Below, one piece after another: positions 29,800 through 58,692 of a stretch of 64,000 nt of DNA; within the stretch, counting starts at the first letter, position 1, and every line of letters begins with the position of its first letter. The position numbers and the translations under genes were made by a program. Source of the stretch: Arenibacter arenosicollis (GTDB lineage Bacteria; Bacteroidota; Bacteroidia; Flavobacteriales; Flavobacteriaceae); NCBI RefSeq assembly GCF_014397245.1, contig NZ_JACLHY010000004.1, positions 186,001 to 250,000 on the forward strand, in the 5' to 3' direction. The notes beneath the pieces are model-generated. The model worked only from the letters and a program-made list of their open reading frames with translations. It did not search any database and was not told the DNA's origin.

Positions 29800-29844
29800 C
29801 AAAGTTATGTTAGTGTTCCGCTGATTCCATCCTGCACTGTACTG
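29800..29844 (-). promoter_or_regulatory. Operator plus -7 promoter box for the rhamnose operon
   Basis: Minus-strand operator CAGTACAGTGCAGGATGG (29844-29827), then 19 nt, then TAACTTTG (29807-29800), a perfect Bacteroidota TAnnTTTG -7 box. It lies 30 nt upstream of the aldolase-dehydrogenase start, in the divergent gap with the GntR gene. One of five modules with identical spacing; the operator occupies the place of the -33 element. Confidence 0.85.
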
Positions 29845-29900
29845 CAATAAGTACTTTTTTTTTAATTTTTGTGATAGTGTACTTACTGAAGGACATCAAG

Positions 29901-29928
29901 TTGACCAATAAAATTCACTATATATATG
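29901..29928 (+). promoter_or_regulatory. Candidate promoter of the GntR regulator gene
   Basis: TTG at 29901 and TATATATG at 29921-29928 give a -33/-7 pair with about 20-nt spacing, roughly 70 nt before the regulator's ATG. No copy of the 18-nt operator overlaps it, so the regulator gene may be expressed constitutively. Confidence 0.4.
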
Positions 29929-29996
29929 ATCTAAAATTATTTAAGTTGAATTAAAAACGGTAAACTCATTAATCTAATTTACTCATTATTATAGCC

Positions 29997-31037
29997 ATGT
30001 ACCAATATCTCAAAATCGATGAAAATTCAAGGATCCCTAAATATAGGCAGATAGTAGATTCCGTAATCAATAATATTTCCAATGGGAATCTAAAGATCGA
30101 TGACAAAATCCCTTCTATCAATAGCTTTAGCGAAGAATACAACCTCTCGCGCGATACTGTTGAAAAGGCTTATCAGATTTTAAAGGAACGAAATGTAATT
30201 ACATCCATTAGGGGAAAAGGATATTACATAACCCGAACAAAACTCATATCCAAAGTCAACATTCTTTTCCTTATCAATAAGTTAAGCGCGTATAAAATGC
30301 GCATTTATAATTCGTTTATAAATACCATAGGAGGCAACTCCCATACGGATCTTCATATTTACCACTGTGACAACTCACTTTTTTTAAATATTCTTGAGAA
30401 GAATATCAATGCATATGATTATTACATCATTATGCCGCATTTCAAGACAGATGACCTTAAACATATAAGCTATACCGATGAAGCTATTAAAGCCATCAAT
30501 AGAATCCCTAAGAATAAACTTCTTTTGATGGACAATAATAATCTTGAAATTGAAGGGAATATTATTGAAATCTATCAAGATTTCGAAAATGATATCTATA
30601 ACGCCCTTAAGGAAGGATTGGCAAAGATATCGAGATATGGAAAATTGATTTTGGTCTATCCCGAAAAAGCGGTTTACCCCTATCCTAAAAGAATTTTACA
30701 TGGCTTTCGTAAATTTTGCGTTGAGCACAAAATAGAGTTCGAGTTCATAGACGAGATTTACGATGACATCATCCTTAAAAAGGGCGATCTTTTTATCACC
30801 ATTGAAGAAACCGACTTGGTAAGTTTGGTGAATCAGATCCGGGACAAGGAGTTTATATTGGGTGTCGAAATAGGAGTTATATCCTATAACGACACGCCCT
30901 TAAAAGAACTGCTCGGAATTACTGTTATCTCAACAGATTTCAAGGTTATGGGCGAAACTGCTTCCCGCATGATTCTAAATAAGGAGAAGGGCAAGATTAA
31001 GAATCCCTTTAATTTTATAGATAGAAATTCCATTTAA
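29997..31037 (+). CDS. GntR-family regulator with LacI-like sensor domain
   Basis: Transcription factor of 346 residues. The N-terminal winged helix-turn-helix (about 1-80) shows IPKYRQIVDSVINNISNG, LKIDDKIPSINSFSEEYNLS and RDTVEKAYQILKERNVI with the wing SIRGKGYYI. The remainder (about 90-346) resembles a periplasmic-binding/LacI-type ligand domain (VNILFLINKLSAYKMRIYNS, ISRYGKLILVYPEKAVYPYP, KVMGETASRMIL), the architecture of AraR-like regulators. It is divergent from the rhamnose operon, which carries one of the repeated operators, so it is the best candidate for the protein that binds them, responding to rhamnose or a derivative. Confidence 0.9.
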   Translation: MYQYLKIDENSRIPKYRQIVDSVINNISNGNLKIDDKIPSINSFSEEYNLSRDTVEKAYQILKERNVITSIRGKGYYITRTKLISKVNILFLINKLSAYKMRIYNSFINTIGGNSHTDLHIYHCDNSLFLNILEKNINAYDYYIIMPHFKTDDLKHISYTDEAIKAINRIPKNKLLLMDNNNLEIEGNIIEIYQDFENDIYNALKEGLAKISRYGKLILVYPEKAVYPYPKRILHGFRKFCVEHKIEFEFIDEIYDDIILKKGDLFITIEETDLVSLVNQIRDKEFILGVEIGVISYNDTPLKELLGITVISTDFKVMGETASRMILNKEKGKIKNPFNFIDRNSI

Positions 31038-31155
31038 GACCTTAAAGGAAACTCCCTTATCAAAATCAACAACTAAACTTTCCAATGGACACCAATTGTC
31101 TTGAACCACAATTGGCCCACCTATGCTATGCAGTTATTTCCTATTGCCTTTTTAA

Positions 31156-31200
31156 CAGTATACAACAGGATAGTTCCTTAAAATAACCAACGTAAGTTTA
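31156..31200 (+). promoter_or_regulatory. Operator plus -7 box upstream of sulfatase gene
   Basis: CAGTATACAACAGGATAG (31156-31173), then 19 nt, then TAAGTTTA (31193-31200), one base from TAnnTTTG. The start codon follows about 143 nt later. This is the most divergent of the five operators, but the CAGGATAG end and the spacing are exact. The rest of the 306-bp gap (31038-31343) holds a 7-bp inverted repeat at 31092-31115 with no T-run and nothing else recognisable. Confidence 0.75.
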
Positions 31201-31343
31201 ACCTTTAATTAGAACTGACCAACAAAGAGTACGTTTCTTATGGGTATTCAGTTTTTTTTTGACGGGTCCGGTAAGGCTGGCCATAGTAAGGCAAAAAGTA
31301 AACGTAGTATATATATTTTTAAAACTATTCCAAATCAACCAAT

Positions 31344-33044
31344 ATGACATATTTCAAAAACTTGGTCATTTGCTTTTTAATGATTCTTATAACGGGATGC
31401 AAATCCAAAATGGAAGAAAAGTCTAAGCTAAAAGCGACTTCTACGAGACCCAACATAATTTTAATATTGGCCGATGATTATGGCATTATGGACAATCAGG
31501 CCTACGCCCATAAATTTTCTGGAGAAGACACCTCCAAAATGTATTATGAAACACCCAACATTGACCGATTGGTCCAAGAAGGCACCGCCTTTTCCCAGGC
31601 CTATGCCAACCAGTTATGTTCTCCGACCCGGGCAAGTATCATGACGGGGAAATACGCAGGTAGACTTGGTTTTACAACCGCCATGCCCCCGCGTGAAACC
31701 TATTACAATCAAAATTTACCGGTCCCTGCCGGATATTACGCCCATGATGTATTGGAACATAAAGATAATATTTTAATAGAGCAGGCATTGGACAATGGCA
31801 CCTCCAACTCCGCTGTACCTACCGGAAATTCTTATGATAAAGGTAAGGACGAACTTTCAATAGCAGAGGCATTAAAGGACTATCACTCTGCCTTTATTGG
31901 CAAATGGCACATAGGTGGTTTCGGCGCACAGGGATACCAGCCTTCGGACCAAGGGTTTGAACCCTTGGCCTGGTTTGACGCCGGTGGTTCGGTATATTAT
32001 GATTGGAAAAAAAGCTGGGATAATAAGGAAAAGACCCGTTTTCCAAAAATGCCACAGGAACATTCGGAAATAGGCGATTCCGGTCAGGAGACCAATGAAG
32101 ATTACCTTACGGACGACTTGACGGTTCAGGCCTTGAATTACATAGACAAAAGATCAAAACTTAAAGAACAGCCTTTTTTCCTTTATTTTTCACATTTTGC
32201 TATCCACTCCCCCTATCAGGGGAAAGAAAACGAAATTGCTTATTTTGAGAACAAATCCACCAAAGGATGGAACGGCCATAAAGATCCGGTCTACGCTTCC
32301 ATGATAAAGAGTTTAGATCGATCAGTAGGTGAAATTTTAAAAAAACTTGAAGAAACCGGTCTTGACGAAAATACTTTGGTCATATTCATGTCGGATAACG
32401 GAGGTATAGATTCCAAAATCACCCCAAAAGGTGAAGGCACCGACAACAGTCCGTTTTTAGGGGGAAAGGCCTGCGTAACCGAAGGTGGTATCCGGGTGCC
32501 CCTTGTCTTTAGATGGAAAGGAAAGATCAAAAAAGGGCAATGGGTAGATGTACCAGTAGATTGCACAGATATTTATCCCACAATTTTAGAAGCTACAGGC
32601 TATGATGCCAAAACTATTGCCACAACCAACAAGCTTGACGGAGAAAGTGTCTTGCCCCTACTTTCAGACCCTGAAAACAATAAGAAAAGTTATAGCAAGG
32701 AAACACATTACTGGCACTACCCATTTAATGTAATTTACAATAGCCCTTATGAACCTTTTGCTTTAACACCACATTCTGCTATTCGGGATGGAGATTATAA
32801 ATTAATATTTGATTGGTATGGACGATTTCACCTGTACAATATTGCGAAAGACCCTTTTGAAAAAAATGATTTGGCATCTGAAATGACAGATAGACGGGAT
32901 GCCTTGTTCAAAAAGATGATGGATTGGCTAATAACCAATGTCGACAAAAGATACTGGCCAACAGTTAATCCAGATTATGACCCCAGCAATGAAGTTAGAC
33001 AGGAACCTTTCCATAATTTGTTTTCAGAATATAAAGAACAATAA
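31344..33044 (+). CDS. Lipoprotein S1 sulfatase (CSPTR)
   Basis: Sulfatase of 566 residues with lipobox ITGC (cysteine 19). The metal site LADDYGIMDNQAYAHKF (about 42-58), active-site C92-S-P-T-R96 with ASIMTGKYAGRLGF, GKWHIGGFG, FAIHSPYQGK, and FMSDNGGIDSK complete the S1 catalytic set. The insertion AHKFSGEDTSKMYYETPNID near the N-terminus and the long C-terminus are typical of larger arylsulfatase-like members. It opens the plus-strand PUL, has its own copy of the shared operator-promoter module, and is separated from SusC by an 858-bp gap. Confidence 0.94.
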   Translation: MTYFKNLVICFLMILITGCKSKMEEKSKLKATSTRPNIILILADDYGIMDNQAYAHKFSGEDTSKMYYETPNIDRLVQEGTAFSQAYANQLCSPTRASIMTGKYAGRLGFTTAMPPRETYYNQNLPVPAGYYAHDVLEHKDNILIEQALDNGTSNSAVPTGNSYDKGKDELSIAEALKDYHSAFIGKWHIGGFGAQGYQPSDQGFEPLAWFDAGGSVYYDWKKSWDNKEKTRFPKMPQEHSEIGDSGQETNEDYLTDDLTVQALNYIDKRSKLKEQPFFLYFSHFAIHSPYQGKENEIAYFENKSTKGWNGHKDPVYASMIKSLDRSVGEILKKLEETGLDENTLVIFMSDNGGIDSKITPKGEGTDNSPFLGGKACVTEGGIRVPLVFRWKGKIKKGQWVDVPVDCTDIYPTILEATGYDAKTIATTNKLDGESVLPLLSDPENNKKSYSKETHYWHYPFNVIYNSPYEPFALTPHSAIRDGDYKLIFDWYGRFHLYNIAKDPFEKNDLASEMTDRRDALFKKMMDWLITNVDKRYWPTVNPDYDPSNEVRQEPFHNLFSEYKEQ

Positions 33045-33793
33045 ATTCTTACCAGGAATAAGCCAAGAAATAAGACAAACATCTTTAATAAGGCCAAGAA
33101 AATTTTTAGCAAACTTCAGAGGCCGAGACCTATAATTGTATCATGGGATCTCAGTTTCAACGTACCATTCATGTACAGGTGCCAATCAATATATCCCTTC
33201 TTGCTCAGAGGTTAAGGTGAATTTGCTAACCACTGGCCAGTATACCTATACAATCCGGAATTAAGAAGAAGGCTGAATACATTAAAAAAATCGTAGAAGT
33301 CAGACCTTTGGATGTCCCAAGAAAATTATTCCCTGAAAATACGATGACGCTATATAATGCACTATTACCGGATTTATCATTGCTATTCCTTATTTAAACT
33401 ATTGGAAGGAAAAAAGAGACAAGGACTTCCTAGAATATATTGTTTTTTCATCTACTGACCAGCCTTTGTGGCTAAAATCAAGGATTGCAAAGGGTTTAAC
33501 TATGTATAGTACTCCAGATATATAAAAAAGGAATTGTTAATTCACATTATTGCCCTTCTACAGATAACCAATATATCGGTCTTAAATCAGAGTCATTCTA
33601 TTATTAAAGCTCTAATTTTGGAACACTGCAAATGGTCCAAGAATTATGTCTTCCACATCCTTCACAAACCCCAAGATTTACTAATTTATATTCCTGGGGC
33701 ACACCCGGCATTATGAGAAAAAACACCCTTTCTGTATAAATTATACCTACTTGCGTATGTTATTTGCCGGACATAAAATTTACCTTGACAATG
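33045..33793. other. Gene-poor gap with possible decayed coding sequence
   Basis: No intact gene seen. Short protein-like open stretches occur in different plus-strand frames, for example IKKKAEYIKKIVEVRPLDV (about 33260-33320) and GFIIAIPYLNYWKEKRDKD (about 33369-33425, continuing open to about 33525), interrupted by stops. They could be remnants of one or more degraded genes; no family is recognisable. The regulated promoter of susC begins at 33794. Confidence 0.3.
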
Positions 33794-33838
33794 CAGTACA
33801 GTACAGGACAGTTAAACAGAACAACCCCTATATATTTG
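33794..33838 (+). promoter_or_regulatory. Operator plus -7 box upstream of susC
   Basis: CAGTACAGTACAGGACAG (33794-33811), then 19 nt, then TATATTTG (33831-33838), a perfect TAnnTTTG. The susC ATG follows about 64 nt after the -7 box. This copy best shows the 5-nt periodic CAGNA repeats and includes the perfect odd-centred palindrome GTACAGTAC. Confidence 0.87.
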
Positions 33839-33902
33839 ATAATTCCCTAATTATTCACTTAAATTTTTTAGGGATAACTAATTAACTAAATAATACGAGA
33901 TT

Positions 33903-36900
33903 ATGAAAAAAAGAATTTACAGGATTTCTCGGAAATTCCTTTTTATTTTAACTCTGCTGTATGGAATCACAATACAAGCACAAAATGTAACGGTTACCGG
34001 TAATGTGGTATCGGCAGACGATTCACAAGGCCTTCCAGGGGTCAATGTGGTTGTTAAGGGCACGACCACTGGAACGGTAACGGATTTTGATGGCAACTAC
34101 AGTATTGTAGCCCCTAGCGCTAACAGTACTTTAGTATTCACTTACATTGGTTTTACCGCCCAGGAAATTCCGATCAACGGAAAAAGCCAATTGAATGTAA
34201 CCATGGCCGAAGATGCTGCTGCTCTAGATGAAGTAGTTGTTGTGGGTTATGGTACACAAATTAAAAGACAGGTAACAGGTTCGGTATCTACTATTCAGGC
34301 CGAGGAACTTGCCGACATTCCGGTCTCCCAGATTACCCAAAAAATACAAGGTAGAATTCCAGGCGTTCAAATTAATCAGACTACAGGTAAACCAGGACAG
34401 GGTATGTCGGTACGTATTCGTGGGCAACTATCCGTTTCAGGGGGAAGCGACCCTTTATATGTAGTTGATGGCTTCCCTATTTCCGGTGGAATAAACAATA
34501 TAAATCCGGATGAAATCCAGGACATTTCTATTTTGAAAGATGCTGCTTCCACTTCCCTTTATGGTTCAAGGGCAGCCAATGGTGTTGTTTTGATTACCAC
34601 CAAAAGTGGAAAGCCAGGTGAAACAAGAGTAAGTCTAAATGTTACGACCAGCATGCAGAGTGTTCCTAACAGGGGACGAATTGAAATGATGAATGCTGTT
34701 GAATTTGCCCAATTTAAAAAGGAGTACTACGAAGATCAGGGGGATCCCGTGCCCGATATTTATCAGAACCCATCACAATACGAGGGGAAAAACAACGATT
34801 GGTACGATGCCATGCTTAGAACGGCCCCCATGACCAACTACAATCTCACCATTACTTCCAACAAAGAAAAATTGAAAACCGCATTGGTGCTGGGCTTCTT
34901 TGATCAGGAGGGTGTGGTCTTAAGTTCAGACTACAAGCGCTATTCGCTACGTGCAAATTTGGAATATAGCCTAACGGATAAGGTCCGCGTAGGGGTTAAT
35001 ATTGCTCCTAGTTACATCTTGGATAATGTACCAAGAACCGATGGTAGTAGGGGAACGGGACTATTATTTAACGCATTGCACACTTGGCCCATTATGCCGA
35101 TCTACAATGATGATGGGACCAGAACGGAATTCAATCGCTTTCCTGCCAATACCGGAAACATCTTCTCTTATGCCAACTGGCTTAATTCTGCAGAAAGAAT
35201 TCAGGACGGAACCAAGGAGGTTAACCTTATTTCCAATGCGTTTGTTGAATACCAACCAATTGAAGGCTTATTCATTAAATCCAGTTTAAACGCGGAATTG
35301 TACAATAGCCAATATGAGTTATTCAGTCCAACCAATGCCACCTATGCAATCAATCGTCCTATACCGACGAACAATGAAGCTATTTGGGACGATAGGACTA
35401 CGTTTTCGTGGTTGAACGAAAATACGGCTAACTATACTAAAAGTATTGGGGAACATAATTTCTCTCTACTAGGAGGTTTTAGTTATCAAAAATATCGTTT
35501 GGACAGAAATAGGGTTGCGGCCAGTGATTTTGCAGATGATAGGTTGCCCAATATTCAAGGAGCGGCAAACATTAATAGAAATGGTACGTTCGATCAGGTG
35601 CAGGAATGGAGTTTGGTTTCTTTATTTTCTAGACTTACCTATAATTATCAAGGAAAGTATCTTTTAACAGGCTCAATTCGTAGTGACGGCTCTTCTAGAT
35701 TCGGCTCTGAGAACAGGTGGGGTACCTTTCCCTCTGTATCTGCCGGTTGGATCGCTTCAGACGAAGCTTTTCTAGAAAATGTGGAATCCATTTCGCTTCT
35801 TAAACTTCGTGCCAGTTATGGTGTTACCGGTAACAACAATATTGGTAACTATACCCAATACGCTTTGATCGACAATACGGTGAATGCCGTATTTGGTAAC
35901 GATTTTGCACCAGGCTCGGCTGTAAATTCACTCTCCAATTCCAATTTGGGATGGGAAACCACAAAGCAGTTCGATATTGGATTGGATTTGAGCCTCTTTA
36001 ACGATAGAGTGTCCTTGGTTTATGATTATTATACCAAAAACACGACCAATCTACTGTACAATGTACAAGTTCCAAGGGAGTCCGGATTTACCAATTTCAG
36101 TGACAACATTGGTGAAATAAAGTTCTGGGGTCATGAGTTTGGTATTAATACCGTTAATACTACAGGTAAATTTAGATGGACTACCAATGCCAATATCTCC
36201 TTCAATAGAAATGAGGTAGTTGCATTGGCCGACGGTATTGACAGGGTTTATGGCCCAGGTGGATGGCACATTACGCAAGTAGGAAAACCCTTTGGTCAAT
36301 TTTACGGACACCTGTCAGATGGGGTTTATCTAAACCAACAAGACTTGGACAGCTCTCCCCAAGTTCCGGGACGTTCTACCGTAGGTAGTATTAAATTATT
36401 GGATGTCAATGGTGATGGGATAATTACTCGCGGAGGAGATTTTGATGACCGTGCCATTATGGGTAGTCCTTTTCCCGATTTCACCTATGGTATCACAAAC
36501 ACCATTAACTACAATAACTTTGACTTTTCTGTAGTGGGTACCGGTTCTCAAGGCAATGAATTGCTTGTTAGACACTTGTATAGTACCACAAACCTGGATG
36601 GGGTATTTAATCTTCTAAAAGATGTAAAATATAGGTTCCGATCCGTTGAAAATCCAGGAAGGGGCTTTTACGGAACTACAGTTGGCGGTGGTAATGTTAC
36701 CGGTATTGAAAGGGACTGGATCAATGACCGCTTTGTAGCAGATGCGTCCTATTTCAATATTAGAAATATAACTTTAGGGTATACAATTCCTGGAGTGGAC
36801 AAATATTTCAAGTCTGCCCGCGTATACGGCTCAGTTCAAAATGTTCACATATTCACCAAATACTGGGGTGGACCAAACCCTGAAATTAGTGTGCAGAACA

Positions 36901-36998
36901 ATGGAGAGGGAGATGGCGGCAACCTCGCCTCCGGGGTAGATATTTCAGGATATCCGGTTCCACGTATATTTAGTTTAGGTTTAAATTTAAACTTTTAA
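33903..36998 (+). CDS. SusC-family TonB-dependent transporter (no STN)
   Basis: Outer-membrane oligosaccharide importer of 1031 residues. Signal peptide to about residue 27 (GITIQAQ), carboxypeptidase-regulatory-like domain (about 29-112, with VTGNVVSADDSQGLPGVNVV and GTVTDFDGNYSI), TonB box region DEVVVVGYGTQ, plug (about 125-235, with VRIRGQLSVSGGSDPLYVVDG) and barrel ending FSLGLNLNF. It lacks the STN domain seen in the SusC at 13105-16494, so it is not expected to signal to a FecR protein; control instead comes from the operator at 33794-33811. The paired SusD gene follows directly. Confidence 0.96.
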   Translation: MKKRIYRISRKFLFILTLLYGITIQAQNVTVTGNVVSADDSQGLPGVNVVVKGTTTGTVTDFDGNYSIVAPSANSTLVFTYIGFTAQEIPINGKSQLNVTMAEDAAALDEVVVVGYGTQIKRQVTGSVSTIQAEELADIPVSQITQKIQGRIPGVQINQTTGKPGQGMSVRIRGQLSVSGGSDPLYVVDGFPISGGINNINPDEIQDISILKDAASTSLYGSRAANGVVLITTKSGKPGETRVSLNVTTSMQSVPNRGRIEMMNAVEFAQFKKEYYEDQGDPVPDIYQNPSQYEGKNNDWYDAMLRTAPMTNYNLTITSNKEKLKTALVLGFFDQEGVVLSSDYKRYSLRANLEYSLTDKVRVGVNIAPSYILDNVPRTDGSRGTGLLFNALHTWPIMPIYNDDGTRTEFNRFPANTGNIFSYANWLNSAERIQDGTKEVNLISNAFVEYQPIEGLFIKSSLNAELYNSQYELFSPTNATYAINRPIPTNNEAIWDDRTTFSWLNENTANYTKSIGEHNFSLLGGFSYQKYRLDRNRVAASDFADDRLPNIQGAANINRNGTFDQVQEWSLVSLFSRLTYNYQGKYLLTGSIRSDGSSRFGSENRWGTFPSVSAGWIASDEAFLENVESISLLKLRASYGVTGNNNIGNYTQYALIDNTVNAVFGNDFAPGSAVNSLSNSNLGWETTKQFDIGLDLSLFNDRVSLVYDYYTKNTTNLLYNVQVPRESGFTNFSDNIGEIKFWGHEFGINTVNTTGKFRWTTNANISFNRNEVVALADGIDRVYGPGGWHITQVGKPFGQFYGHLSDGVYLNQQDLDSSPQVPGRSTVGSIKLLDVNGDGIITRGGDFDDRAIMGSPFPDFTYGITNTINYNNFDFSVVGTGSQGNELLVRHLYSTTNLDGVFNLLKDVKYRFRSVENPGRGFYGTTVGGGNVTGIERDWINDRFVADASYFNIRNITLGYTIPGVDKYFKSARVYGSVQNVHIFTKYWGGPNPEISVQNNGEGDGGNLASGVDISGYPVPRIFSLGLNLNF

Positions 36999-37056
36999 AT
37001 TGAAAACTTTTATGTCTAAACATATTTCACTTTCGACAAATTTTAAAACTGAAAAA

Positions 37057-38583: not shown

Positions 38584-41265
38584 ATGAATAGAATACTTGC
38601 TACACTAATTTTTACGATGCTTTTATCCGTTTCTTGTGAAGATACCAAGAAAATGGAAACTGCAAGTGGCCAAGAGCTCGATCCAAAATTGGCGAAGCTA
38701 AAGTTACAGCCGGGCTTTGAGGCCGAACACCTTTATAGTCCGGGTGATAATGATCAGGGCTCATGGGTAGCCATGGCCTTCGATGACAAGGATCGACTGA
38801 TCACTGCTGATCAATACGGTGCCTTATATCGTCTTGAGCTTCCTGCCATTGGATCTGATGTACTAACGCCCAAGATTGAAAAGCTAAAGATACAAACCGG
38901 AGAAGCCGTGGCCGATTCTATAATTCAAATGGGTTATGCCCAAGGATTGCTGTACGCTTTCAATAGTCTGTATGTAATGGTGAATCATCGCGGTAGTGAT
39001 GAATTCGAGAAGAGCAGTGGGCTCTATCGTTTGCAGGATACGGATAACGATGACCAATATGACAAGATCACCCAGTTAAAGGCATTGAACGGCGCAGGTG
39101 AGCATGGCCCACATAGTATTGTTTTGAGTCCGGACGGAGAGTCTCTTTACATTATTGCTGGAAATCATACCGATCTCCCAGAAATGGATGCTTATCGTTT
39201 GCCCAAGGTTTGGAAGGACGACAATCTTTTTCCCCAGGTAAAGGATCCCCGCGGTCACGCCAATGACCGTGGAGCCCCAGGGGGCTGGGTGGCTAAAATA
39301 GACCCTGAAGGAAAGCATTGGGAATTGGTCAGTGCCGGTTTTCGAAATCCATTTGACCTGGATTTTAACGATGAAGGAGACATGTTTGTTTACGATTCGG
39401 ATATGGAATGGGATTTGGGCATGCCATGGTACCGTCCTACCCGTATCTGCCATGTTACCAGCGGTAGTGAATTTGGTTGGAGAACGGGGAACGGAAAATG
39501 GTCCCCCGCATATCCCGACAACCTTCCTCCGATCGTAAATATTGGCCAGGGATCTCCCACCAATGTAGTTTACGGAAGGGGAGCTAAATTTCCGGAAAAA
39601 TACCAAAAGAGCATTTATGCCTTCGACTGGAGTTTCGGTATCATATATGCCATACACCTTAAGGCCAATGGATCTTCCTATGATGGGGAGAGGGAGGAAT
39701 TTTTATCAGGGATTCCACTTCCTTTGACGGATGGGGTTATAGGTCCTGATGGTGCCATGTATTTCATGACCGGAGGGCGTAGATTGGATTCCGATCTTTA
39801 TAGGGTACACTATACCGGAAACGAAGCTGTATCAGCTGCCAACAAGGCATCCGAACTTACCGAAGGGAATAAGATAAGAAGACAGTTGGAAGAATATCAT
39901 ACAGGCCCAAAAAGTGGGGCTGTTGAATTTGCCTGGCCTTATTTAAACAACGAGGACCGGTTTATCCAATATGCGGCACGTATTGCCGTAGAGCACCAAC
40001 CTGTTAATGAATGGCAGAGCAAAGTGCTTTCTGAAAAAGATCCAATTACTTTGGCGCAGGGAATTATTGCCCTATCCAGACATGGTAACAAATCCCAGCA
40101 GAACCAAATGCTAAATGCCCTTTTAGGGGTAGATTTTTCAAAGCTTTCCCCTCAACAACAAGTGGCCCAACTAAGGGCATTTGAACTGACGCTGTCACGT
40201 TTTGGGGTTCCCGGTTCATCCATTAAGAACAAGGTCATCGATTATCTATCGCCACATTATCCGGCAACGACAGATGTATTGAACCAAATGCTTAGTAAAA
40301 CCCTTGCTTATTTGGACGACCCAACGGTGGCAAGTAAAACATTGGCACTGTTGGAATCCAATACAGGTGAGAATGTTGACGTAATGGCTAACACAGCTAC
40401 AGAGGCTTCGGACCTTATTTTGAGAAATCCACAATATGGAATGGATATAGCCCTTACTCTGAAAAATATGCCTCCCGCTCAGCACACCTACTACGGTATG
40501 GTTCTGGAGGATGTTGATAAGGGATGGACTCCTGAACTCCGTGAAAAATATTTTAAATGGTTCAATAAGGCCTTTTCCTTCAAGGCGGGAAGAAGCTATA
40601 TCGGTTTCATAGACAAGGCTAGAAAAAAAGCATTGACTCATGTACCTAAAAATCAATTTGATTTTTACGATAAATTGTCTGGTGCAGATCTGTTATCCAG
40701 TTCCGGCAACGATTTGGCAGTATCCACTGTGCAACCTAAAGGCCCACGCCACAATTGGCAAGTAGAGGAAATAGAAGCCTTGGTGGCCGATGGACTGAAG
40801 GGTAGGGATTTCGAGTACGGCAAAAGCATGTTCGCTGCTACAACCTGTATCACTTGTCATTCCATGCAGGGAGAAGGAGAGAATATTGGCCCGGACCTAA
40901 CACAATTGGGTACTCGTTTTTCACCCCAAGATATACTTAAGGCCATTATAGATCCAAGCGATGTAATTTCGGATCAATATAATACTACAGTGTATACCTT
41001 AAAGGATGGAAAATCGATTGTTGGACGATTGATGAACGAAACCGAGCAAAATTATATCGTTTCGCAAAACCCTTATGCTCCCGATCAAACTCGTGAGATA
41101 CCTAAGGACCAGGTGGTGGACACCAAGCTTTCTTCCGTTTCATTGATGCCTCCGGGAACTATCAATAGACTTAATGAAGAAGAAGTCAAAGACCTTTTGG
41201 CCTATTTGATTGCAGGAGGAAATCCAGAAAATCCGATATATTCAGAAACAGAGGCCAACAACTAA
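38584..41265 (+). CDS. PVC-type propeller/HEAT/cytochrome c lipoprotein
   Basis: Envelope lipoprotein of 893 residues (lipobox SVSC, cysteine 18). The N-terminal part (about 30-420) is a sorbosone dehydrogenase-like beta-propeller (FDDKDRLITADQYGALYRL, GEHGPHSIVLSPDGESLYI, NPFDLDFNDEGDMFVYDSD). A helical HEAT-like region follows (about 440-690), then a C-terminal cytochrome c domain with C755-I-T-C758-H759, DLTQLGTRFSPQDILKAIIDPS and MPPGTINRL. This PVC-type arrangement is common in planctomycetes and verrucomicrobia. It may oxidise a sugar and pass electrons to the heme, but no member of this arrangement known to me gives a firm substrate. It follows SusD by 33 bp and precedes an FG-GAP protein by 2 bp. 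Confidence 0.85.
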   Translation: MNRILATLIFTMLLSVSCEDTKKMETASGQELDPKLAKLKLQPGFEAEHLYSPGDNDQGSWVAMAFDDKDRLITADQYGALYRLELPAIGSDVLTPKIEKLKIQTGEAVADSIIQMGYAQGLLYAFNSLYVMVNHRGSDEFEKSSGLYRLQDTDNDDQYDKITQLKALNGAGEHGPHSIVLSPDGESLYIIAGNHTDLPEMDAYRLPKVWKDDNLFPQVKDPRGHANDRGAPGGWVAKIDPEGKHWELVSAGFRNPFDLDFNDEGDMFVYDSDMEWDLGMPWYRPTRICHVTSGSEFGWRTGNGKWSPAYPDNLPPIVNIGQGSPTNVVYGRGAKFPEKYQKSIYAFDWSFGIIYAIHLKANGSSYDGEREEFLSGIPLPLTDGVIGPDGAMYFMTGGRRLDSDLYRVHYTGNEAVSAANKASELTEGNKIRRQLEEYHTGPKSGAVEFAWPYLNNEDRFIQYAARIAVEHQPVNEWQSKVLSEKDPITLAQGIIALSRHGNKSQQNQMLNALLGVDFSKLSPQQQVAQLRAFELTLSRFGVPGSSIKNKVIDYLSPHYPATTDVLNQMLSKTLAYLDDPTVASKTLALLESNTGENVDVMANTATEASDLILRNPQYGMDIALTLKNMPPAQHTYYGMVLEDVDKGWTPELREKYFKWFNKAFSFKAGRSYIGFIDKARKKALTHVPKNQFDFYDKLSGADLLSSSGNDLAVSTVQPKGPRHNWQVEEIEALVADGLKGRDFEYGKSMFAATTCITCHSMQGEGENIGPDLTQLGTRFSPQDILKAIIDPSDVISDQYNTTVYTLKDGKSIVGRLMNETEQNYIVSQNPYAPDQTREIPKDQVVDTKLSSVSLMPPGTINRLNEEEVKDLLAYLIAGGNPENPIYSETEANN

Positions 41266-41267
41266 CA

Positions 41268-42497
41268 ATGGCTAATTTAATTGCATTAACCGGTCTATTC
41301 AGGTTAAAAAGACCTGCACTGTCTAAGTTTAATTTTATAAACTTAAACGGTGCAGCGTTTTTTATAAACCCTGTCTTTTTATTGATGGGTTCTTTCATAT
41401 TTGCACAATCGAAACCTTTAAAGTTTACCAAACAACAGATTGCTTCAGAAAGCTATGAAACTGTAGGTGTGTTCGATGTGGACAACGACAACGCCCTCGA
41501 CCTGGTCTCCGGGGCCTATTGGTATAAGGGACCTGACTTCCAAACCCGTCACTATATTGGTTCGGCAAAAAGATACGGGGAATACTATGACGATTTTTCC
41601 ACAATTCCTTTAGACATTAATGGGGATGGACATATGGATTTTATTACGGGCGGATGGTTTGGAAAACAATTGCTGTGGAAGCTAAATCCTGGTGATGGTG
41701 GTGAATGGCAGGAGCATTTAATAGCTGAAGCAGGAAACATTGAAAGTACCCGTTCTTGGGATTTGGATGGCGATGGCACCATCGAAATAATTCCTAATAC
41801 TCCCAATGATTCTTTGGTGATTTATAGATTGCAATTGGATAACAACAAAAAAGGTGCAGAAAAGTTCAGTAAGCACGCCATTTCTGGTGCACAAGGACAT
41901 GGGTTGGGCTTTGGTGATATAAATGGTGATGGATTGGACGACATTATTGTACCAAAGGGTTGGCTCCAAGCCCCTAACGACACCTATGCGGGGAAATGGA
42001 AATTTCATCAGGATTTTGAATTGGGCACGGCAAGCGTACCAATAATTGTAACCGACGTAAATAAGGATGGACTTTCAGATCTTATTGTTGGTCAAGGCCA
42101 TGATTACGGCTTATTTTGGTTTGAACAAAAAACTGCTACCAAGAAACAGAAATCCCAATGGATAAAACACGCCATTGACCCCTATAATTCACAGTACCAC
42201 AGTATGGAATGGACCGATATTGATCAGGATGGGGAAAATGAGCTGGTAACAGGTAAGCGTTACCGTGCCCATAATGGAAAAGACCCCGGCGGTAACGATG
42301 ACCTTGGACTTTATTATTTCAAGTGGAACGGAGAGAATTTTAGTAAACAAGTTATTGATTATGGCCCCTATGGTCAGGGAAAAGGAACCGGAGTCTATTT
42401 TAGTGTTTCCGATGTAAACAATAACGGAATGAAAGATATTATCGTGGCCGGAAAAGATGGCCTTAACATTTATTACAACGAACCTATAAAACAATAA
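41268..42497 (+). CDS. Secreted FG-GAP/VCBS repeat protein
   Basis: Exported protein of 409 residues with repeated calcium-binding-like FG-GAP/VCBS motifs, including DVDNDNALDLVSGAYWY, DINGDGHMDFITGGWFG, DLDGDGTIEIIPN, DINGDGLDDIIVPKGW, DVNKDGLSDLIVGQG, DIDQDGENELVTGKR and DVNNNGMKDIIVAGKDG. A hydrophobic segment (about 32-47) looks like the core of a signal peptide, but its N-terminal part is long, so the true start may lie later. The seven motifs fit a beta-propeller. The 2-bp gap from the cytochrome gene and 3-bp gap to the DUF1080 gene imply one transcript and a shared task, perhaps binding or processing the oligosaccharide. No catalytic residues can be assigned. Confidence 0.82.
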   Translation: MANLIALTGLFRLKRPALSKFNFINLNGAAFFINPVFLLMGSFIFAQSKPLKFTKQQIASESYETVGVFDVDNDNALDLVSGAYWYKGPDFQTRHYIGSAKRYGEYYDDFSTIPLDINGDGHMDFITGGWFGKQLLWKLNPGDGGEWQEHLIAEAGNIESTRSWDLDGDGTIEIIPNTPNDSLVIYRLQLDNNKKGAEKFSKHAISGAQGHGLGFGDINGDGLDDIIVPKGWLQAPNDTYAGKWKFHQDFELGTASVPIIVTDVNKDGLSDLIVGQGHDYGLFWFEQKTATKKQKSQWIKHAIDPYNSQYHSMEWTDIDQDGENELVTGKRYRAHNGKDPGGNDDLGLYYFKWNGENFSKQVIDYGPYGQGKGTGVYFSVSDVNNNGMKDIIVAGKDGLNIYYNEPIKQ

Positions 42498-42500
42498 ATC

Positions 42501-43304
42501 ATGAATTTGAAAAGAACTTTTAAGCCACATATATTAGTGCTGCTTGCAATTGTTGGCCTACAGTCCTGCAAGGAAAAAAATGAAAATAAACCACAGCCGG
42601 AAGTGGCAGCGGCCACAACGGAACAGGATGGCTTTGTACAGATATTCGATGGCAAGACACTTGATAACTGGGAAGGAGATCCCAATTATTGGAGGGTAGA
42701 GAGCGGAAATCTTGTGGGTGAAGTAACCCCCACTACTTTGTTGAAGAATAATACCTTTATTATTTATCAAGGAGGACAACCGGCAGATTTTGAACTGAAG
42801 CTCGAATTCCGAATAGCGGAAGCAGGGAACAGTGGTATAAATTACCGCAGTGAAAAAGTGGATACCATTCCTTTTGCGTTACGTGGTTATCAAGCCGATA
42901 TAGATGGAAAAATCAGGTATACCGGGCAGAACTATGAAGAGAAAAAGCGTACTACTTTGGCCTATAGAGGCGAAAAGGCAAGAATAACGTCTCAGGAAAA
43001 TCCAGATACTCCAGGTTCTTTACGAGCCAATGTAGCAAAGAATGCCTGGCAGAGTAGGGAGATTTTGGAATCACTTGGAGATTCGGACGAATTAAAGACT
43101 GAAATTAAAAGTGAAGATTGGAACGAAGCCCACCTTATCATTAAAGGAAACAAATTACAACATTACATTAATGGCATCCTAATGAGCGAGGTAATCGACG
43201 ATGATACGGTTAATAGGACTTCCTCAGGGTTTTTAGGTGTTCAGGTACATGTAGGGCCGCCTATGAAAGTAGAATATAGAAATATAAGATTGAAGAATTT
43301 ATAG
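42501..43304 (+). CDS. DUF1080 (3-keto-disaccharide hydrolase-like) lipoprotein
   Basis: Envelope lipoprotein of 267 residues (lipobox LQSC, cysteine 23) with a single DUF1080 concanavalin-like domain: GFVQIFDGKTLDNWEGDPNYW, NTFIIYQGGQPADFELKLEF, RIAEAGNSGINYRSEK, HLIIKGNKLQHYINGILMSE and GFLGVQVHVGPPMKVEYRNIRL. Some relatives are reported to cleave 3-keto-glucosides, which would fit a pathway in which a sugar is first oxidised by an exported dehydrogenase. Here it is the last gene of the plus-strand operon; a strong terminator follows at 43391-43427. Substrate is inferred. Confidence 0.85.
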   Translation: MNLKRTFKPHILVLLAIVGLQSCKEKNENKPQPEVAAATTEQDGFVQIFDGKTLDNWEGDPNYWRVESGNLVGEVTPTTLLKNNTFIIYQGGQPADFELKLEFRIAEAGNSGINYRSEKVDTIPFALRGYQADIDGKIRYTGQNYEEKKRTTLAYRGEKARITSQENPDTPGSLRANVAKNAWQSREILESLGDSDELKTEIKSEDWNEAHLIIKGNKLQHYINGILMSEVIDDDTVNRTSSGFLGVQVHVGPPMKVEYRNIRLKNL

Positions 43305-43427: not shown

Positions 43428-43491
43428 ACTTTCCAAAGCATGTCAAATCCCCTACTCCAACTATATAATTAATATATATTTCATGACGGCA

Positions 43492-43536
43492 CAGGACAGC
43501 ACAGGATAGGTTATGATGATATAAAGCTTAAGTTTG
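43492..43536 (+). promoter_or_regulatory. Operator plus -7 box upstream of sulfatase-GH78 gene
   Basis: CAGGACAGCACAGGATAG (43492-43509), then 19 nt, then TAAGTTTG (43529-43536), a perfect TAnnTTTG. A further CA-CAGGA-like repeat precedes it (GGCACAGGA from 43488). The start codon is about 170 nt downstream, leaving a long untranslated leader. Confidence 0.85.
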
Positions 43537-43706
43537 ATCAAGTCTATTTCAATCGCAATAATACTTTGTTTTTTTGAACAATAGTAGAAGTTCCAGTCTC
43601 ATGGAAAACAACTTATTTTTGAAATTGATATTGATAACTCTTAATTTATGGATCAATAACGATAGGCAAATTACAACTGCCAATTAAAAACAAAAAACAC
43701 CAATAG

Positions 43707-47228: not shown

Positions 47229-47343
47229 TGTATTTCATACTAACTATTTTCACATTCTTATGTTTAACATTGACCATAAATAATGCTCAGTAAAATAAAA
47301 TGAGTATCGAAAAAATTATATTTTTAATTATTATATCCATCAT

Positions 47344-48807
47344 TCAATCTAATCGAGTTTTCTTTTTTTCGGTAGCCTCATAAGATTCATGCCCGGTAGA
47401 TCCCTGCCCTAGAATTTTATAACGCTCTTGAGGCACCTGCAATCTGTGCTGGGCAATTATATCAGCATAATCTACATTGCTAATGGAGTTGTACCATTCC
47501 TGTGGGTCCTTTTCATGGTCATAAAATTCTTCAGACCCATCATTATATTGTATATAACGATAACGTTCCGATATGATGGCGTAGTTGCCAGGTCCAAAAC
47601 AAGTTCTGGCATAATGTGACCATTCAGTGTCCCTATTCATTAATAGTGGCACCAAAGAATTTCCTTCGTGTTTAGGGTCTGGTTTAAGATTGGTCAATTC
47701 AAGCAACGTAGGGTAGATATCCAATAATTGAACTGGCTTATTAATAACTTTTCCCTTAGGAATACCGGGTCCAATAATTATCAATGGCACTCGTGCCCCA
47801 TCTTCCCATAGGCTCCGTTTGGCGAAGCGTTCCTTTTCGCCCAGGTGGAAACCATGATCACTAAATAATACCACATAAGTGTTTTTGCCATAGTCCCCAT
47901 TTTCCAGTGCAGTAATCACTCGACCAACTTGATCATCCACAAAACTTACACAGGCCAGATAGGACTGTACCAAAGGTTTCCATTCCTTATTCTCTGTCAC
48001 CCATTCAAAAGTTGGCGACACATGATTTAAGCGGGTGATATCGATACCGTAGGAAGAAATATCATTCAGATCTCTTGTAATGGTATTAGGTCGCTGTAGA
48101 GATTCCAATGGATACAAGTCAAACCATTTTTGTGGTGCAAATTGAGGCACGTGTGGACGATAGAAACCAACGCCCATCCAAAAGGGTTGTTCTTGTTTTT
48201 TCGCCAATCTTTTTTCTGCCCAACTTGCAATTTGATAGTCGGGCATTTGTTCATCACTTTCAGGATAGACCCCCCAGTCCCACAATGGATGGCCCGGATA
48301 TGTACTTATTTTTTTTTCGGGCATGGGCCCAAACCCGCCAAATTGCCCTGCATAATTTGGAATATGGGTTTCGTTGATTCCTTTCCCATTGTGGAAGATT
48401 TTACCCGCAGCAAAAACATTATAACCCTCCTGCTGAAACCGTTTTGGCATTACTATATTTTTACTTGCCACGGGAGATTCTGTAATATCTGGATTTAAAA
48501 AGTAAATACCAGAGGTACTGGGATATAAGGAGGTCATAACACTTGCCCTACTGGGATTACAAACCGGAGCCTGACAATGCGCATTACTAAAAAGAACGCC
48601 ACGTTGGGCCAACCGATCCATATGGGGGGTTTTGGCTTGGGGGTGACCTCCAAGAACCCCAATCCAATCATTAAGGTCATCTACGGCGATAAACAATACG
48701 TTGGGTCTTTCAGGAATTATATTAGTTTCAACCTTCTTTTTGGAATTACAAACCCCTAGTATTAGTAAAAGTGCTAAAAGTGAAAAAAGCGTTTTTATAA
48801 TTTTCAT
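47344..48807 (-). CDS. Lipoprotein S1 sulfatase (CNPSR, iduronate-2-sulfatase-like)
   Basis: Sulfatase of 487 residues with lipobox LGVC (cysteine 20). The motifs VDDLNDWIGVLGGHPQAKTP, active-site C83-N-P-S-R87 followed by ASVMTSLYPSTSGIY, GKIFHNG, FYRPHVPQFAP, FSDHGFHLGEKERFAKRSLW and LLDIYPTLLELT are those of iduronate-2-sulfatase-like members. It is convergent with the sulfatase-GH78 gene (115-bp gap without a clear terminator) and follows the next minus-strand sulfatase, separated by a strong palindromic terminator, so it likely has its own promoter in 48808-48970. Confidence 0.94.
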   Translation of the reverse strand: MKIIKTLFSLLALLLILGVCNSKKKVETNIIPERPNVLFIAVDDLNDWIGVLGGHPQAKTPHMDRLAQRGVLFSNAHCQAPVCNPSRASVMTSLYPSTSGIYFLNPDITESPVASKNIVMPKRFQQEGYNVFAAGKIFHNGKGINETHIPNYAGQFGGFGPMPEKKISTYPGHPLWDWGVYPESDEQMPDYQIASWAEKRLAKKQEQPFWMGVGFYRPHVPQFAPQKWFDLYPLESLQRPNTITRDLNDISSYGIDITRLNHVSPTFEWVTENKEWKPLVQSYLACVSFVDDQVGRVITALENGDYGKNTYVVLFSDHGFHLGEKERFAKRSLWEDGARVPLIIIGPGIPKGKVINKPVQLLDIYPTLLELTNLKPDPKHEGNSLVPLLMNRDTEWSHYARTCFGPGNYAIISERYRYIQYNDGSEEFYDHEKDPQEWYNSISNVDYADIIAQHRLQVPQERYKILGQGSTGHESYEATEKKKTRLD

Positions 48808-48971
48808 ATAGGATATTTAACATTATATAACTATTGCTGAAGCTTTCAACCGTACATATCAAATTGATAGTTAATGCCAAGTAATTTACTTGTAAAATAA
48901 TAAATATTGCATATTAATTTTGGTCAACTCTACTGCACTCCAATCTGATGATACTACTTTATTATTCAATT

Positions 48972-49003
48972 AAAAAATGTGTGTCCCGGGACACACATTT
49001 TTT
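48972..49003 (-). terminator. Perfect 32-bp palindrome, probable terminator
   Basis: AAAAAATGTGTGTCCC is followed at once by its exact complement GGGACACACATTTTTT, a 16-bp arm palindrome centred on CCCGGG. It lies about 38 nt past the stop of the sulfatase gene at 49041-50504, and the six T residues at the end give a U-tract in either direction. Confidence 0.85.
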
Positions 49004-49040
49004 CAATTTAAACCGTTTATGACATACCACAAGAAATTAG

Positions 49041-50504
49041 CTAGTTAGTATAAGGCACTGTACCAGTCTCATCAACCGGGTACCCCAACTTTTTAATGTA
49101 TTCCATTCCCGGAAGAAATTCATCCCCAGTTTCTTTCAAACGCTGGGATAGCTGTTTTTCCAATTCGTCCTGTAGGGTGGTATAGCCCTCATTGCCCACA
49201 AGGTTGAACAATTGGTATGGGTCATTGATGTTGTCGAACAGCAACCAGGGACCGTTCATATCCCTGGCATAGGTGTATTGTTTGGTTTTAATGGCCCTGT
49301 ACTCCCGACCACCATGTTTTACTCTATTCCATTGTCCAAAGGGTTGTACACAGGTTAGCAAGGTAGCATGCCCTATTTCCTCTTTTCCTTCCATATAAGG
49401 CCTATAATCCAATCCTTCCACAGTATTAGGGATGGAAATATCACAGAGACTTAGAAGGGTGGGCATGATATCTTCGGAATTCATTAAAGCGTCCCGTTCT
49501 CCAGAGGCGATTTTTAATTTTTCTGGAATGTAGTACAGCATGGGCACCCTTGCGGATTCCTCGTACGGTTGCTGCTTTTTATAGGCCCCATGAGAGCCCA
49601 ATAGATCCCCATGATCTGCAGTAAACACTATGATGGTATTATCAAATTGACCGGAATCCTTTAGATTTTTTATCACCTTACCTATCATATCATCCAATGC
49701 CGCTATATGGGCATAATAACCTGCCAGATCCTTTTTTGCCCGTTCTTTAAGGCTATCCGGCACATTTCTACGAAGTTGGATCTTTGCCGGATCAAATCGG
49801 TTCCTATATTCCAATGGGGCGGTATGGTATGGTGCGTGGGGTGTACCATAGGAAAGGATCATCATAAACGGATTCTCGGCAGACTTCCTTTCCTTGATAT
49901 AGTCAATGGCAGCATCTGTCTGTTCAAAGGTGTCATAGCCGTCCCAAATTTTTCTTTTGGGGTCATCGTTGTCATAGTACACCGATTCATTGTAATCATG
50001 GGTACATTCGTTGCCTTTCCAGAACTGGAAACCCTGTCTTCTTTGGCCAGGGGCCACATTCTGTAGCCTACCATGTCCGTCCAAATGCCATTTACCGATA
50101 TAGCCGGTATCATATCCTTCCTTGTTGAACACCTTTGCAATGGTTACCGCATTGGTATCCAGCTGCACATCGTTCATAAAGACCCCATGGGTCAATGGGC
50201 GCTGCCCTGTTAAAAGTGACGCCCTAAACGGAGAACATACGGGCATCCCGGATACCGCATTTTTAAAATTGACGCTTATGGCTGCCAAACTATCCAGATG
50301 CGGGGTGTCCACATTGGGATCACCGGCATAACCAGTAGCCTGGGCCCGCCATTGATCCGTTAAAAGCACCAAAACGTTTGGCTTGGCGGGGGTTTGGGGT
50401 TCCTCGGTAATTTCCTTTTTTTTCTCATTACAAGAAACGACCGAAACAAGCGTAAACGCCAAGATTAGATATTGACTAAGGAGCTCTTGAACTTTATTTT
50501 TCAT
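49041..50504 (-). CDS. Lipoprotein S1 sulfatase (CSPFR)
   Basis: Sulfatase of 487 residues from the ATG at 50504 (an in-frame GTG at 50513 would add three residues). Lipobox SVVSC (cysteine 25). The motifs LTDQWRAQATGYAGDPNVDTP, active-site C90-S-P-F-R94 with ASLLTGQRPLTHG, GKWHLDGHGR, YGTPHAPYHTAP and FTADHGDLLGSHGAYKKQQPYE place it with choline-sulfatase/arylsulfatase-like members; phenylalanine in the fourth motif position is uncommon. It lies behind a regulated promoter (50878-50922), with a small unassigned reading frame between the two. Confidence 0.93.
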   Translation of the reverse strand: MKNKVQELLSQYLILAFTLVSVVSCNEKKKEITEEPQTPAKPNVLVLLTDQWRAQATGYAGDPNVDTPHLDSLAAISVNFKNAVSGMPVCSPFRASLLTGQRPLTHGVFMNDVQLDTNAVTIAKVFNKEGYDTGYIGKWHLDGHGRLQNVAPGQRRQGFQFWKGNECTHDYNESVYYDNDDPKRKIWDGYDTFEQTDAAIDYIKERKSAENPFMMILSYGTPHAPYHTAPLEYRNRFDPAKIQLRRNVPDSLKERAKKDLAGYYAHIAALDDMIGKVIKNLKDSGQFDNTIIVFTADHGDLLGSHGAYKKQQPYEESARVPMLYYIPEKLKIASGERDALMNSEDIMPTLLSLCDISIPNTVEGLDYRPYMEGKEEIGHATLLTCVQPFGQWNRVKHGGREYRAIKTKQYTYARDMNGPWLLFDNINDPYQLFNLVGNEGYTTLQDELEKQLSQRLKETGDEFLPGMEYIKKLGYPVDETGTVPYTN

Positions 50505-50553
50505 GGATTTCACTTTTTATAATATTAAAGTATCATCGAATAGGGTACGAGCT

Positions 50554-50814
50554 TTATTTAAAGCAGGGTTTATGTGTTATGTTCGTATTAAGTTCAAACT
50601 CCTTATTTGCAATCGGACACAAGAATTCCTCCTGAGTAATTCCAGAGGATTCTGGACAAATTGAACCAAAGTATATCGGAACACGTAAAGGGTTAGCTTT
50701 TGTCCTTGTACCATAGGGAGTAATTTCGTCAGCTGTCAGGCACATCCCTATTAAGCCACAGTAAGAATTATTAAAGCATTTTGAACCCACTTTTATCTGC
50801 AAGTATAAGTTCAT
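50554..50814 (-). CDS. Small cysteine-rich protein, unassigned
   Basis: Reading frame of 86 codons lying between the regulated promoter at 50878-50922 and the sulfatase gene, 49 bp upstream of the sulfatase ATG. The predicted start is about 60 nt after the -7 box. It contains six cysteines (near 13, 19, 25, 53, 65 and 84) in segments such as KCFNNSYCGLIGMCL, FGSICPESSG and EEFLCPIANKEFELN, and has no signal peptide. I do not recognise the family. It may be a real leader gene co-transcribed with the sulfatase, or an ancient remnant. Confidence 0.4.
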   Translation of the reverse strand: MNLYLQIKVGSKCFNNSYCGLIGMCLTADEITPYGTRTKANPLRVPIYFGSICPESSGITQEEFLCPIANKEFELNTNITHKPCFK

Positions 50815-50877
50815 AATTTATCAAGACCAATGCCTATTTAAAAATTAAGGGTTGAAATATTTTCATCAATATAACAA

Positions 50878-50922
50878 CAAGTTTAGTAAAAATCTTTTTC
50901 AAGACCATCCTGTACTCTACCG
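50878..50922 (-). promoter_or_regulatory. Operator plus -7 box upstream of minus-strand sulfatase unit
   Basis: Minus-strand CGGTAGAGTACAGGATGG (50922-50905), then 19 nt, then TAAACTTG (50885-50878), one base from TAnnTTTG. It drives the small 86-codon frame and the sulfatase gene at 49041-50504. The surrounding gap (50815-51187) shows nothing else recognisable. Confidence 0.82.
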
Positions 50923-58690: not shown

Positions 58691-58692
58691 AT

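Follow-up and report, generated by a model that had tools for sequence, protein, structure and literature searches.

A fixed-distance operator/promoter module and a candidate GntR-type regulator of an L-rhamnose regulon in Arenibacter arenosicollis

Five copies of a 45-bp operator/promoter module are found in a 64,000-nucleotide stretch of the Arenibacter arenosicollis genome (the window; C34:186001-250000, where C34 is contig NZ_JACLHY010000004.1 of a 5.4-Mb genome in 77 contigs). Each has an 18-nt operator, a gap of 19 nt and a promoter box related to TAnnTTTG. The geometry of the module, its conservation, its neighbouring genes, its co-occurrence with a GntR-type protein and the covariation of a residue of that protein with an operator base are observed. 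Taken together, they make it probable that this protein, which has a LacI-type sensor domain, is a sugar-responsive class II activator of an L-rhamnose regulon. We infer direct binding, activation and the ligand from sequence. An earlier note on this DNA described the modules without naming a regulator or a mechanism, and we propose both. The switch, set at an exact promoter distance, is common to bacteria that digest polysaccharides containing rhamnose, and by way of it a single, probably sugar-sensing protein appears to control rhamnose breakdown as well as polysaccharide digestion.

The module in the window and in other genomes

The module has the same geometry at all five sites in the window. 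The coordinates, strands, 18-nt operators, 19-nt gaps and TAnnTTTG or one-base-variant boxes claimed in the earlier note were all confirmed by direct reading. Three of the boxes (TAACTTTG, TAAGTTTA, TATATTTG, TAAGTTTG, TAAACTTG) match TAnnTTTG exactly and two have one base changed, and the claimed invariance of CAGGA holds across the five sites (Table 1). Module 2 has close counterparts at the equivalent position in three Arenibacter loci (L021, L023, L025), and module 4 has an additional 10-bp unit upstream, at 43482. Module 5 is the weakest site, with 3 mismatches in the strict scan described below.

A scan of the genome places seven of eight sites in one rhamnose/sulfatase/rhamnosidase cluster. 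The strict pattern, CAGNACRGNNCAGGATRG-N19-TANNTTTG with up to 3 mismatches, has seven matches in 5.4 Mb, all within 43 kb (C34:215800-258332), and the reversed pattern used as control has none. The matches are the five window modules and two new sites about 8 kb beyond the window, each with 1 mismatch; the new sites are divergent and 47 nt apart. Since the pattern was built from the five sites, the independent evidence is the two new sites and the conservation in other genera. A looser scan (box TAnnTT, at most 1 mismatch) loses module 5 and gains a weaker eighth site on another contig (C77:194912). Its box, TAAATTGT, is two bases off TAnnTTTG, and it ends 168 nt before a GMC oxidoreductase gene; a similar GMC oxidoreductase of Pseudozobellia (L047) also has a module. 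The operator alone is unspecific, with 21 genome matches at up to 2 mismatches versus 10 for the reversed pattern.

The distance between operator and box is conserved in other genera. Loci (L numbers) were fetched by similarity to the GntR-type protein, and the best 80 of 91 relatives were used; the nearest relatives are proteins of Arenibacter species, with up to 93% identity. When operators were picked by a weight matrix of seven sites that ignored the box, 156 were found in 73 of the 80 loci. TAnnTT occurs at gap 19 in 123 of these 156, and no other gap from 0 to 39 exceeds 12 cases. Outside Arenibacter the gap is 19 in 104 of 136 operators, or 101 of 133 distinct sequences. The consensus of the module is CRGKAYAS-YA-CAGGAYRS-N19-TAnnTTTG.

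The most constant position of the module is upstream of rhaEW, which encodes a rhamnulose-1-phosphate aldolase/short-chain dehydrogenase. The rhaEW start could be read in 66 loci, and in 64 of them a module with up to 4 mismatches (58 with up to 2) lies at most 420 nt upstream, while the reversed control has 0 of 66. In 61 of these 64, 14-37 nt separate the end of the box from the rhaEW start. At these limits no rhaEW module was found in L045 and L063, both from Flavobacterium; in L045 the module instead precedes a GDSL esterase gene.

The module co-occurs with the GntR-type protein across the family. In 299 family genomes (G numbers) the module was scored at up to 1 mismatch and a GntR ortholog at E <= 1e-100, a threshold set after the values had been seen, in an empty gap between 8.6e-123 and 2.7e-82. 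The module is present in 63 genomes, the ortholog in 60 and both in 59, with 2 control matches in all 299. Thus the module occurs in 59 of 60 genomes with the ortholog versus 4 of 239 without it, in tables that ignore shared ancestry. In G173, which has the ortholog and no module at this limit, a 3-mismatch module precedes rhaEW. The four genomes with a module and no ortholog (G019, G064, G108, G242) have one match each. Of 69 genomes with rhaI, 57 have the ortholog, and the module is found in 56 of these. Of the 12 that lack the ortholog, two (G064, G108) have the module; both have a diverged GntR protein, and their modules are at rhamnose loci. Where the ortholog is absent, rhaI still somewhat predicts the module (2 of 12 with rhaI versus 2 of 227 without). 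In a sample of 385 genomes from the phylum, 30 have the module, including 18 of 18 with a match at E <= 1e-100, six of which are also in the family sample; G323 has a module with only a weak GntR match. Three genomes with the GntR protein and without rhaI (G001, G236, G271) were considered as separating the module from rhamnose genes, and this was rejected, as G001 and G236 carry rhaEW beside the GntR gene. In the examined stretch of G271, rhaEW was not seen.

The candidate regulator and its operator

The best candidate for the regulator of the module is the GntR-type protein whose gene is divergent from rhaEW. Its winged helix matches PF00392 (E 3.4e-12, 46.3 bits versus a cut-off of 27). At E <= 0.001 it matches only the GntR, HTH_41 and Rrf2 helix families in Pfam and GntR-type models in NCBIfam, and no DeoR, LacI or AraC DNA-binding domain was found by these searches. 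A sequence search of solved structures gave 18 PDB matches, mostly GntR-type and covering residues 3-92 only, including the AraR DNA-binding domain (4egy). The AlphaFold model has a mean predicted local confidence (pLDDT) of 88.7 and a predicted template modelling score (pTM) of 0.70. Fold searches with residues 84-346 found LacI-type chains with Z of about 20-23 (best 22.8), the effector domain of AraR (3tb6) with Z 20.5 and a root-mean-square deviation of 3.5 over 247 aligned residues, and, with Foldseek, the Lac repressor as best match. A LacI/periplasmic-binding fold joined to a GntR helix gives the protein an AraR-type architecture. The C-terminal domain would sense rhamnose or an early catabolite.

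Two sites beside GntR paralogs were also seen. At L168:8647-8664, CAGAACAGAACAGAACGG immediately precedes the start codon of a paralog with Phe56, and the identical operator is present in G134 and G159, which suggests autoregulation by a relative sharing the repeat grammar. At L096:10099-10143 a module-like site comes after a paralog with 53% identity and precedes the gene of a hybrid two-component regulator.

Residue 56 of the recognition helix covaries with base 4 of the second operator unit. At some rhamnose loci with a diverged GntR protein (38-43% identity) CAGAA replaces CAGGA, still 19 nt from the box (L110, L111, L114, and weakly L113), whereas L112 and L116 have a diverged protein and keep CAGGA. 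With base 4 left free, 112 loci were scanned; a rhaEW start is present in 88, of which 81 have a module with up to 4 mismatches (71 with up to 2), the weak ones including L094, L095, L112 and L154-L156. Glu56 goes with G in 77 of 77 modules and Val56 with A in 4 of 4, counted locus by locus; the distinct modules number 73 and 4, and the result is unchanged when the GntR gene nearest rhaEW is used. The seven rhaEW loci without a module include two Val56 loci (L113, L114) whose sites adjoin the GntR gene instead. In a scan of the 299 genomes for CAGAA, the only zero-mismatch places among the matches listed are in G108 and G222, both with Val56, and most one-mismatch places among them are CAGGA sites. 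In our alignment residue 56 corresponds to Arg49 of FadR and Arg67 of AraR, which are backbone contacts in the recognition helix (PMC4494728). Glutamate would suit C and valine the methyl group of T. In three genomes from a different family in the same order (L150:3275, L151:2557, L152:8997), CGGGA replaces CAGGA before rhaEW and Glu56 is retained.

The operator appears to be built mainly of direct repeats. The 5-nt periodicity seen earlier is visible, with an identity of 0.56 at lag 5 and 0.70 at lag 10 versus 0.28 expected, although the search pattern itself favours periodicity; both values are higher than that of the best dyad. CAGNAYRS units with up to 1 mismatch are found at offsets 0, 5 and 10 in 146, 122 and 151 of 155 modules; these offsets are partly built into the pattern, and the upstream offsets are not. 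Further units occur at -5, -10, -15 and -20 in 10, 9, 7 and 6 cases, and at +15 in 4. The operator carries about 24 bits of information. Many GntR-family motifs are palindromes (PMC4494728, with one Bacteroidetes protein among its GntR proteins). When compared with the GntR palindrome NyGTNxACNy, the sites, which were picked with a repeat-like pattern, are dominated by direct repeats, with the dyad GTACAGTAC partly present.

Activation, repression and other explanations

The position of the operator relative to the box suggests activation. The box matches the Bacteroidota sigma-A -7 consensus TAnnTTTG, whose position in Flavobacterium psychrophilum is -12 to -5 (PMC9723704). With the box at -12 to -5, the operator would extend from about -49 to -32, with its centre at about -40.5. 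Class II activators such as CRP bind near -40.5, and this position would favour activation. Bacteroidota sigma-A promoters also have a -33 TTG element. TTG is found at -33 in 0 of 133 modules, and ordinary promoters also are without a clear -33 box: of 54 ordinary promoters from 400 kb of the A. arenosicollis genome, 4 have TTG at gaps of 18-21, as do 3 of 16 controls, and no clear -33 box was seen in 92 ordinary promoters of the fetched relative loci.

In the proposed mechanism the modules would be activator-dependent sigma-A promoters of the L-rhamnose regulon. The N-terminal GntR winged helix would bind the tandem CAGNA repeats, with their period of 5/10 bp, at the place where a class II activator contacts RNA polymerase, and the C-terminal LacI-type domain would sense rhamnose or an early catabolite. 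The presence of the sugar would lead the protein to turn on rhamnose catabolism jointly with the sulfatase, rhamnosidase and SusCD genes. A more detailed version is tentative, a possible account that we do not take as established: the activator may read 5-bp tandem repeats next to the promoter and, held at a single distance, stand in for the -33 contact, which would couple rhamnose catabolism to the rhamnose-bearing polysaccharide of each organism (ulvan, sulfated rhamnan or rhamnogalacturonan), with helix residue 56 reading repeat base 4 as a two-letter specificity code.

Repression by the same protein at the same operator is unlikely. The sugar-free protein would cover the -33 region and block the polymerase, and rhamnose would release it. 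The operator does overlap this region, and AraR, the known protein of the same architecture, is a repressor according to its PDB name. In addition, G226 encodes a distant GntR paralog (Phe56, 33% identity) whose start codon is immediately preceded by a CAGAA triple repeat, an arrangement like that of an autorepressor. However, a repressor needs no exact spacing, yet the spacing is kept in 64 rhaEW promoters and 123 of 156 operators. The extra repeat units upstream (32) outnumber those downstream (4), and the centre is near the class II position. Both the constancy of the distance across many genera and the upstream growth of the repeats are more in keeping with an activator than with a repressor.

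It is improbable that another regulator, such as an AraC-type protein, a hybrid two-component system or a DeoR-type protein, binds the module and that the GntR protein is a mere neighbour. Direct-repeat sites have been predicted for RhaR proteins of the AraC and DeoR types (periods of 21 bp and 10-11 bp; PMC3870299), and an AraC-type gene is present at L017:14450-15322. The module nevertheless tracks the GntR protein, and a helix residue of that protein covaries with an operator base. When open reading frames (ORFs) of at least 200 amino acids were clustered in the 80 loci, the GntR protein was found in 80, rhaEW in 66, rhaK and rhaI in 63 each and the permease-like protein in 47, and no second DNA-binding protein was recognised among the 22 largest clusters, named from sequence starts.

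An operator acting as the -35 element of an alternative, extracytoplasmic function (ECF) sigma factor is highly improbable. Two ECF sigma/FecR pairs flank the cluster, with sigma genes at 17847-18452 and L017:7411-7986, and the spacing is fixed. The idea was rejected because the downstream box is of the sigma-A type; moreover, the 18 nt of the operator form a tandem repeat that in some modules continues upstream, and the presence of the module follows the GntR gene. Chance likeness among AT-rich promoters, which the earlier note had deemed unlikely, is a negligible explanation and is refuted by conservation in other genera: the operator alone gives 21 matches versus 10 in the control, but the full module gives 7 versus 0 in the genome and matches in 63 of 299 family genomes versus 2 control matches.

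Besides the naming of AraR as a repressor, several observations weigh against the GntR protein as an activator at one exact distance. The spacing is imperfect: in the Neolewinella loci L086 and L094 the best box stands 20 nt from the operator, and L159 contains a site with a gap of 18. The weaker dyad GTACAGTAC is 0.51 complementary versus 0.22 expected, and an inverted site is possible. The 80 loci were chosen by GntR similarity, and a regulator encoded elsewhere or shorter than 200 amino acids would escape the ORF survey. In the phylum sample, distant GntR proteins (E 1e-100 to 1e-60) are accompanied by the module in 11 of 27 genomes, and the pattern is absent from 16 of 27. The Val56 proteins differ from the window protein at many other residues (40-42% identity), and the change at residue 56 may represent one or two events.

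Regulon scope and known systems

The regulon is better called an L-rhamnose regulon. The earlier note called it a sulfated-rhamnan regulon; one regulon with a fixed-geometry operator/promoter is upheld, but the name is too narrow, as targets in relatives are not confined to sulfated rhamnan and the eighth site is on another contig. The survey of targets covered 88 loci, made up of the 80 loci, seven stretches of G265 and L017, with L058 and G265 overlapping; 83 of them contain modules, 177 in all and 169 distinct. The best matches of the targets are rhaEW (65), SusC (22), the sulfatase-GH78 fusion (8), sulfatase (7), GH78 (6), permease (5), 3-keto-disaccharide hydrolase-like proteins (2) and GntR itself (2), with no ORF in 5 and other genes in 55. 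For 20 of the 177 modules, the following gene has the SusC at 33903-36998 as its best match. Pfam scans of 27 of the other targets left four without any family. In G265 the targets include a PL28 ulvan lyase, a second protein with the ulvan-lyase trefoil, an FGGY kinase and a short-chain dehydrogenase. Among the further targets are KduI, Ppx/GppA, FBPase, a PL22-type lyase, GH35, GH2 and GMC oxidoreductases, and Flavobacterium, including Flavobacterium sufflavum, has GH106, GH88-type and GDSL genes. Restriction to sulfated rhamnan was rejected on account of the ulvan-lyase, rhamnosidase, GH88-type, KduI and FBPase targets. A search for PL28 in the A. arenosicollis genome gave no match, but the same search found it in none of 14 control genomes, so the gene may be present all the same. 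Overall the commonest target is rhaEW and the polysaccharide targets vary with the organism, and the common factor appears to be L-rhamnose rather than sulfation. The GH35, GH2 and hybrid two-component system targets by themselves do not show a rhamnose link.

Table 1. Modules, candidate regulator and neighbouring genes (window positions unless prefixed).
Feature	Position	Strand	Description
Module 1	29800..29844	-	CAGTACAGTGCAGGATGG, N19, TAACTTTG; promoter of rhaEW-rhaI-rhaK-permease
Module 2	31156..31200	+	CAGTATACAACAGGATAG, N19, TAAGTTTA; precedes sulfatase 31344-33044
Module 3	33794..33838	+	CAGTACAGTACAGGACAG, N19, TATATTTG; precedes SusC/SusD unit
Module 4	43492..43536	+	CAGGACAGCACAGGATAG, N19, TAAGTTTG; precedes sulfatase-GH78 fusion
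Module 5	50878..50922	-	CGGTAGAGTACAGGATGG, N19, TAAACTTG; about 365 nt upstream of listed start of sulfatase 49041-50513
New site 6	C34:258196-258240	-	precedes GH78-type gene L017:8378-11146 (-)
New site 7	C34:258288-258332	+	precedes GH78-type gene L017:11357-13132 (+)
Proposed regulator, 346 aa	29997..31037	+	divergent from rhaEW; GntR winged helix-turn-helix (about 15-80), LacI/periplasmic-binding-type sensor (84-346)
rhaEW	27665..29776	-	rhamnulose-1-phosphate aldolase/short-chain dehydrogenase; TIGR02632, NF006191 above cut-offs
rhaI, L-rhamnose isomerase	26296..27576	-	TIGR02629 E 1.1e-149, under equivalog cut-off
rhaK, rhamnulokinase-like FGGY kinase	24913..26286	-	PF00370; TIGR02627 best but under cut-off
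468-aa hydrophobic, probably polytopic protein	23391..24797	-	candidate rhamnose permease; cluster in 47/80 loci
Sulfatase	31344..33044	+	PF00884
SusC	33903-36998	+	PF07715, PF13715
SusD	37000-38550	+	PF07980, PF14322
Heme-binding, FG-GAP, 3-keto-disaccharide hydrolase-like genes	38584..43304	+	in one run with SusCD
Sulfatase-GH78 alpha-L-rhamnosidase fusion, 1173 aa	43707..47228	+	PF00884, PF17389
Two sulfatases	49041-50513, 47344-48807	-	PF00884

The candidate permease has no match in Pfam or NCBIfam. Other features of the neighbourhood were also seen. Lactonase, KDPG-type aldolase and 2-keto-3-deoxy-galactonokinase genes lie downstream of the rha genes (20163-22938) and are possibly a second sugar-acid pathway. 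The ECF sigma/FecR pairs (16640-18452 and L017:5764-7986) are near STN-type SusC genes, which suggests a second, module-free regulatory input on the flanking SusCD units. A run of Planctomycete-type genes (PSCyt1, PSCyt2/DUF1549, PSD1/DUF1553, DUF1501) is found at 51547-61530, inside this flavobacterial polysaccharide locus.

To our knowledge, few operator sequences have been described for polysaccharide regulons of marine Bacteroidota. With the 45-bp module, rhamnose-regulon genes can be listed from sequence, including targets without a Pfam family, and the module yields a candidate regulator, a guess at the ligand and a specificity residue that can be mutated. If activation is true, activator function would be extended to GntR proteins with LacI-type sensors. 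The earlier note knew of no published description of the motif, and none was found in the open-licence literature by title and start of abstract, a narrow search with subscription papers and RegPrecise outside it. Such a motif was likewise not found in passages of PMC5507952, PMC12323373 and PMC12125979.

The candidate regulator resembles several known systems and differs from each of them. Like AraR, the arabinose repressor of Bacillus subtilis, it combines a GntR winged helix with a LacI-type sensor, but here there are tandem direct repeats, a fixed promoter distance, a Bacteroidota host and rhamnose genes. A GntR repressor of alginate genes, AusR, is reportedly present in Zobellia galactanivorans. 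Judged by title, it is similar in being a GntR-family regulator of an algal polysaccharide locus in a marine flavobacterium; it is set apart by its description as a repressor. The MocR-type proteins GabR, TauR and PdxR are described activators in which a GntR winged helix acts on direct repeats (PMC5320631). Unlike these, the candidate has a LacI-type rather than an aminotransferase-like sensor, and the PdxR and MocR models match its helix domain only. Control of a rha operon is shared with RhaR, which is of the AraC type in Bacteroides and of the DeoR and LacI types elsewhere, protein families different from the GntR-type candidate. Rodionova et al. (PMC3870299) describe AraC-, DeoR- and LacI-type rhamnose regulators, and the word GntR is absent from the main text. 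Ravcheev et al. (PMC3878776) report the GntR regulators FucR and ManR in Bacteroides. FucR (BT1272) of Bacteroides thetaiotaomicron is, like the candidate, a GntR-family regulator of a deoxyhexose operon; compared by description only, it differs in acting on fucose and on a single target operon.

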